Source: Cellvibrio zantedeschiae (GTDB taxonomy: Bacteria; Pseudomonadota; Gammaproteobacteria; Pseudomonadales; Cellvibrionaceae). From it: 64,000 nt of DNA. Positions 23,416 to 53,458 of this stretch are shown one piece after another (position 1 is the stretch's first letter; the number at the start of each line of letters is the position of its first letter). The stretch covers positions 1,550,001 to 1,614,000 of the forward strand of contig NZ_BMYZ01000001.1 of the NCBI RefSeq assembly GCF_014652535.1, in the 5' to 3' direction. Under the pieces are notes generated by a model. That model ran no database searches. It worked only from the letters and a program-made list of their open reading frames with translations, and had not been told where the DNA came from. The position numbers and the translations under genes are program-made.

Positions 23416-23492
23416 CGTGACTCAATGCTTATGGCAAAAGATGATTGATAACACAAGGAATGATTAAAGCAGCAGTGTAATCTGTGCGGCAC

Positions 23493-23532
23493 AAATAAAA
23501 AAGGCACCATTTTCATGGTGCCTTTTTTATTT
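23493..23532. terminator. Bidirectional terminator behind tRNA-Ser
   Basis: AAAAAGGCACCAT and its complement ATGGTGCCTTTTTT flank a 4-base loop, with A- and T-rich flanks on both sides. It directly follows the tRNA-Ser 3' end in the minus direction and separates it from tusD. Confidence 0.85.
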
Positions 23533-23539
23533 GTAAATA

Positions 23540-23630
23540 TGGCGGAAGGGCAGGGATTTGAACCCTGGGTAGGCTATAAACCTACGCCGGTTTTCAAGAC
23601 CGGTGCATTAAACCACTCTGCCACCCTTCC
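23540..23630 (-). tRNA. tRNA-Ser(UGA)
   Basis: A 91-base class II tRNA on the minus strand. The acceptor arm GGAAGGG pairs with CCCTTCC before an encoded CCA (23540-23542). The anticodon loop is CTTGAAA with anticodon TGA, there is a long variable arm, and the T loop reads GGTTCAAATCC. It therefore reads UCA and related serine codons. In Pseudomonas relatives a serine tRNA also neighbours the tus operon (recollection). Confidence 0.96.
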
Positions 23631-40571: not shown

Positions 40572-41276
40572 ATGAAAAGCATGTTTGCGTTGTTGTGTGT
40601 GTTGGGGCTGGCTGGTTGTGCAACTGGGAAACAAAATCCAGCCAGCACTATCAATGATGATGAATTGCTGAGGAAAGGCACGGCGCTGGTTGCAAATGGA
40701 TCTGCCCAACGGGCTATAAATGAATATTTCAATCCTATCATTGAACGCTGCAATACACAGAAAGCGAATTATAAGGGAAAGATTTATGCGGCGCGTAATC
40801 AGGTTGAAACCATTTTCTATCTTGGTTTAGCCGGTGCCGAAAATGTGGATGCGCAAGTCATTTCGGCAACATGCCCTGAAGCTCTTTTTATGAAAGCCTA
40901 CTCCAGTTTTGATTTGGGGCAGTTGGAAAACGCAATTAGATTTTTAAATGAAGCCTTGGAGTGGTCGCCGCTTAATGCAAATTATTTGGCTGAACTTGGA
41001 AATATTTACCAAACCCAGCGCGATTGGAATACTGCCTTAGAAAAGTATTCACTTGCTGAAGACTACGCGTTAACTTATTCGCCAGAATCCATTAGAACGA
41101 GGGAGTTAGCGCGAGCCAAACGTGGAGTTGGATTTGTGCTGATTGAGTTGGGTAGATTGGATGAGGCGGAAAAGAAGTTTAAAGAATGTCTTGAGCTGGA
41201 TAAGAATGATAAAAATGCATTGAATGAGCTTGAATACATCAAGCAACTTAAAAGCAAAGACAAAAAAGCCTCTTAA
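40572..41276 (+). CDS. TPR-repeat lipoprotein
   Basis: A 234-residue lipoprotein: lipobox LAGC (Cys about 16) and a mature part with tetratricopeptide units (AIRFLNEALEWSPLNANYLAELG and the region around LGRLDEAEKKFKECLELD). The partner and role are unknown; such proteins often scaffold envelope complexes. It sits closely behind cysS and its stop codon lies within the loop of the following terminator. Confidence 0.8.
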   Translation: MKSMFALLCVLGLAGCATGKQNPASTINDDELLRKGTALVANGSAQRAINEYFNPIIERCNTQKANYKGKIYAARNQVETIFYLGLAGAENVDAQVISATCPEALFMKAYSSFDLGQLENAIRFLNEALEWSPLNANYLAELGNIYQTQRDWNTALEKYSLAEDYALTYSPESIRTRELARAKRGVGFVLIELGRLDEAEKKFKECLELDKNDKNALNELEYIKQLKSKDKKAS

Positions 41277-41287
41277 GAGGCTTTTTT
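41262..41287. terminator. Bidirectional terminator between convergent genes
   Basis: AAAAAAGCCTC and GAGGCTTTTTT flank a TTAA loop that includes the stop codon of the TPR lipoprotein. The T/A runs on both sides serve the convergent ypjD-like gene as well. Confidence 0.85.
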
Positions 41288-50856: not shown

Positions 50857-52047
<1,191 letters not shown>

Positions 52048-52120
52048 GTTTCGTTGCTTAAAAGTTATTTGAGTTAATCAGAAGCTGTCTTTAAAACAGC
52101 ATCTGTTTTAAACAGGGGGG

Positions 52121-52188
52121 CGTCATCCTCGTAGAGGATCCAGTGACTTAAAAATTTTTAAGTCACTGGATCCTCTACGAGGATGACG
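52121..52188. repeat. Perfect 68-bp palindrome (two 34-bp arms, no spacer)
   Basis: The arm 52121-52154 is exactly the reverse complement of 52155-52188. Each arm contains its own small dyad ATCCTC-GTA-GAGGAT, followed by CCAGTGACTT and a run of A at the centre. It lies 73 bp after the fadA stop codon and about 100 bp before pilU. It resembles dispersed short repeats of the GTCAT...ATCCAGTGACTT type known from several proteobacteria (recollection) in a head-to-head pair. As RNA it would form one very long hairpin. It has no T-run typical of intrinsic terminators apart from the central A/T. Confidence 0.85.
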
Positions 52189-52291
52189 ACTCCCAATAAA
52201 ATACAGTAAAGCGTTAGATATCTCTGCATGTTTTTTTCTCTCTAAATTATCTCGCCGTAACGAAACAGAATTTATAGAAGGAATTGCTTTC

Positions 52292-53458
52292 ATGCCTACA
52301 CCTATCGACCAATATCTCAATATCCTCGCCAAAAAAGATGGCTCAGATTTATACCTGAGCACAGGTGCTCCTCCTTGCGCAAAATTCCAGGGCACCTTAA
52401 AGCCTTTATCGCAAGACGTATACAAAGCAGGTGAAATTGAAGCCATTGCCAATGAAATTATGGATGAAGAACAGCGCGAGATTTTTAAGCACGAGCTGGA
52501 AATGAACCTGGCGATTTCAATTCACGGGGTTGGTAGATTTCGCATCAACATTTTCAAGCAACGTAACGAAACATCGATTGTTGCTCGTAATATTAAAACC
52601 GATATTCCACAGTTCGATAGTCTTGGCTTACCTGAAGTTTTGAAAGATGTGGTTATGAGTAAGCGTGGCTTGGTGCTTTTTGTTGGTGGGACGGGCTCAG
52701 GTAAATCCACTTCTTTGGCAGCACTAATTGATCACCGCAACAGTTCAAGCGGCGGGCACATAATTACCATTGAAGATCCTGTTGAGTTTGTTCATAAACA
52801 TAAGAAAAGCGTGATCAACCAGCGTGAAGTTGGTGTGGATACACGCAGCTATAAAGCGGCACTGAAAAATACATTACGCCAAGCGCCTGATGTTATTTTG
52901 ATTGGGGAAGTTCGCGACCGCGAAACTATGGAGCATGCACTGGAGTTTGCTGAAACGGGCCACCTGGCAATATCAACGCTTCATGCCAATAATGCGAACC
53001 AGGCATTAGAGCGCATTGTCAATATGTTTCCCGAGGAACGCCGCCCTCAATTGCTCATGGGGTTGTCACAAAATTTGCGCGCTTTTGTGTCACAACGTTT
53101 ATTGCCAACTGTTGATGGAAAACGCTGCGCCGCTATTGAAATTTTGTTGGGGTCAAAAACGATTCAAGAGTTGATTTTGAAAGGCCGCTTTACCGAAATA
53201 AAAGAAATTATGGAAAAGTCTGAAAATTTGGGAATGCAAACCTTCGATGGCGCACTTTTCAAGCTTTATATGGCCGGTAAAATCAGCCTGGATGATGCGA
53301 TTACTAATGCGGATTCACCCAATAATTTACGCCTGCGCATTAAATTGGCTGGCGATTCTACGGTCGCACCCACACCTGAAGCCGTGAAAGCCGCGAGTGC
53401 ACCCGCCAGTTTTGCCGAGTTGAGCCTCGAAAAAATAGATGACGACGAAAACACGTAG
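52292..53458 (+). CDS. pilU: Type IV pilus retraction ATPase PilU
   Basis: A 388-residue PilT/PilU-type hexameric ATPase. Walker A GGTGSGKST from residue 132, the Asp box ITIEDPVEFVH, Walker B ILIGEVRDRETM and the His box TGHLAISTLHANNA are present. The C-terminal extension (about 340-388) with EIMEKSENLGMQTFDGAL is of PilU type rather than PilT. No pilT is adjacent, although pilT and pilU are usually neighbours in Pseudomonas. Confidence 0.9.
   Translation: MPTPIDQYLNILAKKDGSDLYLSTGAPPCAKFQGTLKPLSQDVYKAGEIEAIANEIMDEEQREIFKHELEMNLAISIHGVGRFRINIFKQRNETSIVARNIKTDIPQFDSLGLPEVLKDVVMSKRGLVLFVGGTGSGKSTSLAALIDHRNSSSGGHIITIEDPVEFVHKHKKSVINQREVGVDTRSYKAALKNTLRQAPDVILIGEVRDRETMEHALEFAETGHLAISTLHANNANQALERIVNMFPEERRPQLLMGLSQNLRAFVSQRLLPTVDGKRCAAIEILLGSKTIQELILKGRFTEIKEIMEKSENLGMQTFDGALFKLYMAGKISLDDAITNADSPNNLRLRIKLAGDSTVAPTPEAVKAASAPASFAELSLEKIDDDENT

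Follow-up and report, generated by a model that had tools for sequence, protein, structure and literature searches.

Two head-to-head copies of a CGTC-tagged REP variant form a perfect 68-bp palindrome between fadA and a pilus ATPase gene of Cellvibrio zantedeschiae

CGTC-tagged REPs form a known superfamily in which head-to-head dimers predominate, and the authors who described it found no transposase (Di Nocera et al. 2013, PMC3733652). Their hallmarks, according to that account, are the CGTC tag, an AT at the base of the stem and a CCA tail. The same paper reports the absence of a transposase association in other genomes as well, and it left the spread and upkeep of these elements open, with no transposase tied to them. 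Our search of the later literature found no answer on this point; in the accessible text of PMC6006769 and PMC12306157, the term CGTC stands only in the cited title of PMC3733652. REP doublets of another kind, the REPINs, have been proposed to be mobile elements that depend on RAYTs for their movement (Bertels and Rainey 2011, PMC3116915). A separate line of work concerns template switching, which perfects imperfect inverted repeats in Escherichia coli reporters (PMC7202029), has been reported to homogenize the arms of inverted repeats in yeast (PMC8604942) and has also been reported to perfect inverted repeats in RNA genes and RNA hairpins (PMC8794818). Our literature search found no report on homogenization of inverted repeats in bacterial intergenic DNA.

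The window analyzed here is a single 64-kb stretch of the C. zantedeschiae genome, and positions 52121–52188 within it form an exact 68-bp palindrome. The 34-bp arms (52121–52154 and 52155–52188) are exact reverse complements with no spacer between them, as the initial annotation had claimed, and the secondary dyad that it had seen in each arm is also present (ATCCTC-GTA-GAGGAT at 52125–52139, mirrored at 52170–52184). Each half consists, in order, of CGTC, the 6-bp hairpin ATCCTC-GTA-GAGGAT, CCA, GTGACTT and AAAAA. An inverted-repeat search indicates that imperfect symmetry continues outside the 68 bp, with arms of 52 nt (52103–52154 and 52155–52206) that are 87% complementary. This is the longest spacerless palindrome of the window, followed by one of 26 bp (41262–41287) and one of 16 bp. 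The features of the locus are as follows.

50869..52047, plus strand: fadA (acetyl-CoA C-acyltransferase), upstream neighbor; NF006510, 647.5 bits (cut-off 519), and TIGR02445, 601.4 (cut-off 591)
52115..52120, no strand: left outer flank GGGGGG, against GGGAGT beside many family members
52121..52188, no strand: 68-bp head-to-head homodimer of a short-stem CGTC REP, from sequence
52121..52142, plus strand: left REP, with tag CGTC, stem ATCCTC/GAGGAT, loop GTA and tail CCA, from sequence; architecture as described in PMC3733652
52143..52166, no strand: inner part GTGACTTAAAAA/TTTTTAAGTCAC, wholly self-complementary; its halves are unlike in the other parsed dimers
52155..52192, no strand: stretch of 38 nt shared without mismatch with the right half of the sister dimer G000:C3:43824-43887; its last 4 nt lie outside the palindrome
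52167..52188, minus strand: right REP, mirror of the left REP, from sequence
52189..52194, no strand: right outer flank ACTCCC, which fits the outer extension GGGAGT/ACTCCC of many family members
52292..53458, plus strand: pilus ATPase of the PilT/PilU family, downstream neighbor; TIGR01420, 440.8 (cut-off 319.1)

The profile matches bear out the name fadA for the upstream gene. The name pilU for the downstream gene rests with the initial annotation, as TIGR01420 cannot separate PilU from PilT. Elsewhere in the window, the 26-bp palindrome is perfect, has runs of A and T at its ends and is probably a two-way terminator. The region 23491–23630 holds a tRNA gene on the minus strand (23543–23630) that adjoins an inverted repeat, which may be its terminator. 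At gathering score, one tRNA was the match to RNA families in the window and none was found at the palindrome.

Judged from its sequence, the palindrome consists of two CGTC-tagged REPs in head-to-head arrangement. Its arms share with the described CGTC REPs the terminal tag, the AT at the first stem positions and the CCA tail, and its family likewise often occurs as head-to-head dimers dispersed in the genome, with no cognate transposase found (PMC3733652). However, its stem of 6 bp and loop of 3 nt differ from the 8–9 bp and 4–5 nt given in Table 1 of that paper, and we therefore call it a variant rather than a plain member. It also differs from the described elements in that the two halves of its spacer are identical, rather than differing, and in being perfect.

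Copy counts in the genome support the earlier view that two facing copies of a dispersed GTCAT...CCAGTGACTT repeat make up the palindrome. The 28-mer GTCATCCTCGTAGAGGATCCAGTGACTT is found exactly at three places, namely the two palindrome arms and C3:43860, and once more with two mismatches, while a wider short-stem pattern occurs at 6 places. A long-stem relative, with a stem of 8 pairs (G-T counted) and a GNA loop as judged by eye, is more numerous: its pattern occurs at 42 places, 16 of which form 8 facing pairs 23–29 bp apart, and there are others whose partners are too degenerate for the pattern to catch. Many family members have the outer extensions GGGAGTC/GACTCCC. The dimer pattern matches 17 places in this genome, of which 16 are REP-like and one (C3:156356) apparently arose by chance. 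Four long-stem dimers of this genome (L025, L035, L105 and L108) have an additional segment resembling CCGGGCTGGC within the CCA-G tail of one of their arms. A related type of CGTC dimer, with the inner junction ATGGAT and short spacers, is seen in G001, G002 and G019.

We parsed 88 candidate dimers from the fetched stretches of five genomes, of which a hairpin-quality filter kept 70 and dropped 18; several of those dropped are real dimers, and at least one of those kept (L206) is misread. Within this set of 70, the self-complementary fraction of the spacer has a mean of 0.44 (sd 0.13), and the palindrome is the only dimer with a fully self-complementary spacer, at 1.00, the next being at 0.69. 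A looser filter, which kept 80 of the 88 and dropped 8 (real dimers among them again), left these top two unchanged. TGACTT lies on exactly one inner side in 10 of the 15 other short-stem or mixed dimers and on both sides in none of them (L206 left out); where it lies on one side, the opposite inner side is usually CGTCTT or close to it. L146 comes closest to the palindrome in symmetry, with a single difference in the first eight.

The sister dimer on C3 has 38 nt in common with the right half of the palindrome, 4 nt of which lie beyond it, and its left half has another loop and an inner part that is different throughout. Thus, one half of the palindrome is that of an unconverted relative, the paralogue G000:C3:43824-43887, and the other is the inverted copy of that half. 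The simplest reading of these sequences is that an inverted copy of the right half has taken the place of the left half. The segment 52155–52192 would then be the original half, given an identity with the sister dimer that reaches past the palindrome.

The collections used, which hold one genome per species, offer 20 other genomes from the genus, and the site was compared in three of them (G003, G005 and G017). The gene for fadA is adjacent to the ATPase gene in G003 and G005 also, and the two genes lie apart in the other congeners where both are listed. The gap between them contains a long-stem dimer in G005 and a dimer collapsed to a remnant in G003. A long-stem dimer is also located upstream of the ATPase gene in G017, where the contig ends soon after and the equivalence of the site is less sure. 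A recent insertion, as first suggested for the palindrome, is therefore not supported, and we rejected it, since the site is occupied in relatives. To judge from these comparisons, the fadA–ATPase gap has probably been occupied since before the split of these species; repeated insertion at one place is a possible alternative. By eye, no target-site duplication was seen in the flanks of the palindrome, for which there is no clean empty site to compare with.

Four points are observed directly: the family, the dimeric form, the occupation of this site in relatives, and the existence of a sister dimer that has only the right half in common. The explanation that fits them best, and that we consider rather probable, is a CGTC REP dimer at a long-occupied gap between fadA and the ATPase gene that was perfected by a template switch and that persists without SbcCD. 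In such an event, a replication fork would meet the quasi-palindromic dimer, and the new strand would fold back at the central T/A run and take the right half as its template. An inverted copy of the right half would thereby replace the left one, which would amount to quasipalindrome correction by template switching, and the perfect product would persist, given the apparent absence of the hairpin nuclease SbcCD. No transposase would be needed to make the palindrome perfect. The proposed outcome, in which one arm loses its own sequence to an inverted copy of its partner, is the same as in the described cases of quasipalindrome correction (PMC7202029, PMC8604942, PMC8794818). Unlike those systems, the locus is a natural REP dimer, and the event is deduced from a paralogue and from relatives rather than caught happening. 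Some observations weigh against a template switch. The sister dimer is a paralogue at another site, not an ancestor, and the switch itself is read from sequence comparison; the copying of a whole homodimer would also pass on identical arms; and 4 of the 12 orthologous sites, the present one among them, carry dimers of different class in different species, a pattern for which switching inside a single dimer cannot account.

Arm likeness is not confined to the palindrome. The two arms are identical in 23 of the 70 dimers. Random reassignment of arms within each genome gives an expectation of 8.44, and none of 10,000 such shuffles reaches the observed number. The excess is seen in this genome (7 of 13 dimers, expected 1.79; reached by 4 of 10,000 shuffles), G017 (10 of 32, expected 5.27; 120 of 10,000) and G005 (2 of 7, expected 0.15; 75 of 10,000), and it is weak in G020 (3 of 15, expected 1.03; 541 of 10,000).

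Twelve dimer sites, recognized by shared flanks of about 500 bp or more, are common to different species. Two of these have recognizably shared spacers and paired arm changes: at s1 (L156/L175) a matched change in both arms gives the loops A/A and T/T, and at s2 (L157/L205) one G-to-T change on the REP strand is present in both arms, each accompanied by some unmatched changes. Both arms also differ together at s7 (T/T and A/A), where the spacers are unlike and the dimer may therefore have been replaced as a whole. The change is in one arm only at s8 and s11, and the changes in the two arms of s10 do not match in position, all of which weighs against a template switch. The four sites at which the class differs, with long and short stems swapped, are the fadA–ATPase gap, s3, s5 and s6. 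Whole-dimer copying can explain some of the arm likeness, and it is inseparable here from switching in place. A wider proposal, which is tentative and which we regard as possible but doubtful, is that the CGTC REP dimers of this SbcCD-less genus are long-lived fixed sites rewritten in place, their arms homogenized repeatedly by template switching and their classes swapped by conversion from other copies, with spread that does not involve a transposase; the 68-bp palindrome would be the end state of one such rewrite.

SbcCD cleaves hairpins in vitro with a lower limit at palindromes of 20–36 bp (PMC4245961), so that a 68-bp palindrome would be a substrate where the nuclease is present. A profile search for SbcD (TIGR00619) found no match in this genome, and none of the 21 genomes of the genus exceeded the cut-off. 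Eight of the 21 gave weak matches of 20.5–23.9 bits. These candidates for a divergent SbcD were rejected as CpdA-type cyclic-AMP phosphodiesterases, all eight exceeding the cut-off of NF008359. Matches to SbcC (TIGR00618) in the genus are short, covering at most about 140 of 1043 positions, and many of them fall in frames of about 1172 residues that are probably SMC. Strong matches to both proteins were found in 6 of 57 relatives (G025, G029, G030, G042, G052 and G054). Among 14 known genomes used as controls, 13 matched the SbcD profile, 8 over the cut-off and 5 below it, with one lacking a match, and all 14 matched the SbcC profile, one of them over its cut-off. Thus, by these profiles SbcCD appears to be absent from the genus, with a very divergent pair possible in view of the control genomes that fall short of the cut-off. 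The absence of SbcD may let the palindrome persist, and active maintenance, which the initial annotation had considered, does not appear to be needed if the genus is without SbcCD. SbcD is missing throughout the genus, yet the number of dimers ranges from none to dozens among the matches listed, which indicates that abundant dimers do not follow from its absence alone.

An alternative is that the perfect homodimer arrived ready-made, as a CGTC REP pair transposed by a RAYT or another transposase. Dispersed copies of the family in the genome would suit such a history, as would the mobility proposed for REP doublets (PMC3116915), and the palindrome resembles a REPIN in consisting of two inverted REPs that form one hairpin in the predicted fold. 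The genome also has one RAYT, its single PF01797 match (NF047646, 194.4 bits, cut-off 80). However, this gene sits between GTAG repeats (GTAGGTACGATTAGCG..., with 11 exact cores in the genome), and, unlike a REPIN, the palindrome repeat does not flank it and has the tag CGTC, not GTAG. Mobilization of the palindrome by a RAYT, as initially suggested, is thus unsupported. Nor was the CGTC arm found at any of 13 Y1/RAYT loci scanned, which comprise the RAYT of this genome and 12 of 30 fetched loci. The exact pattern of paired TGACTT motifs has a single occurrence in this genome; 36 other genomes and the viral contigs searched lack it, and its one record in genome contigs, from a Comamonadaceae metagenome-assembled genome, has a 15-nt spacer and unlike arms. 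Together with the occupied site in congeners, these counts make a ready-made arrival unlikely in our view. A plasmid search with the locus matched 42 records, and all 20 of the matches listed lie in the gene parts of the query. As for the wider distribution, G001 has no PF01797 match yet at least 13 dimer-pattern matches that look REP-like to the eye, and G013 and G014 have two PF01797 matches each, with no dimer-pattern rows among the matches listed. One RAYT locus of G017 (L066) has seven hairpins of GTAG type whose sequence is different again (GTAGCCCG...CGGG).

The palindrome could also be the product of selection for a long hairpin downstream of fadA, in RNA or in DNA, that kept or made the arms complementary through ordinary paired substitutions. 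The predicted fold is strong: as RNA, 52060–52240 (181 nt) gives −88.2 kcal/mol, with z = −13.25 against 200 shuffles. The palindrome lies between two genes on the same strand, and if transcribed it would form an RNA hairpin of about 32 bp behind fadA. By analogy with the REP literature, this could perhaps serve as an mRNA 3′-end structure or have a role in stability. The hairpin is followed by no U-tract and is thus not a standard terminator; the four intrinsic terminator candidates predicted in 51900–52400 all lie off the palindrome, and no promoter was predicted in this interval. The paired arm changes in two orthologous dimers would agree with selection on pairing. However, a run of changes would have been needed in the left half, the central spacer is perfect here, with no other kept dimer exceeding 0.69 in self-complementarity, and little more than a remnant of the dimer is left at this site in G003, all of which makes selection for a hairpin an improbable origin. 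We consider it just as improbable that two identical right halves were brought together when two REP copies underwent unequal recombination or inversion. The genome offers several family copies, one of them with the same right half, but the exact 28-mer is present at only one other place, the outer flank there ceases to match 4 nt outside the palindrome, and fadA is still next to the ATPase gene, as in G003 and G005. Palindromes are generally prone to fold-back artifacts in library preparation or assembly. Such an artifact is very improbable here, since 68 bp is shorter than common sequencing reads and the palindrome lies inside a 2.43-Mb contig with ordinary flanking genes.

A template switch at an old dimer therefore remains our preferred account of the palindrome. 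Together with its orthologues, the locus suggests that part of the sequence change in CGTC REPs is made on the spot by replication, and the absence of a hairpin nuclease may set which palindromes a genome can hold.
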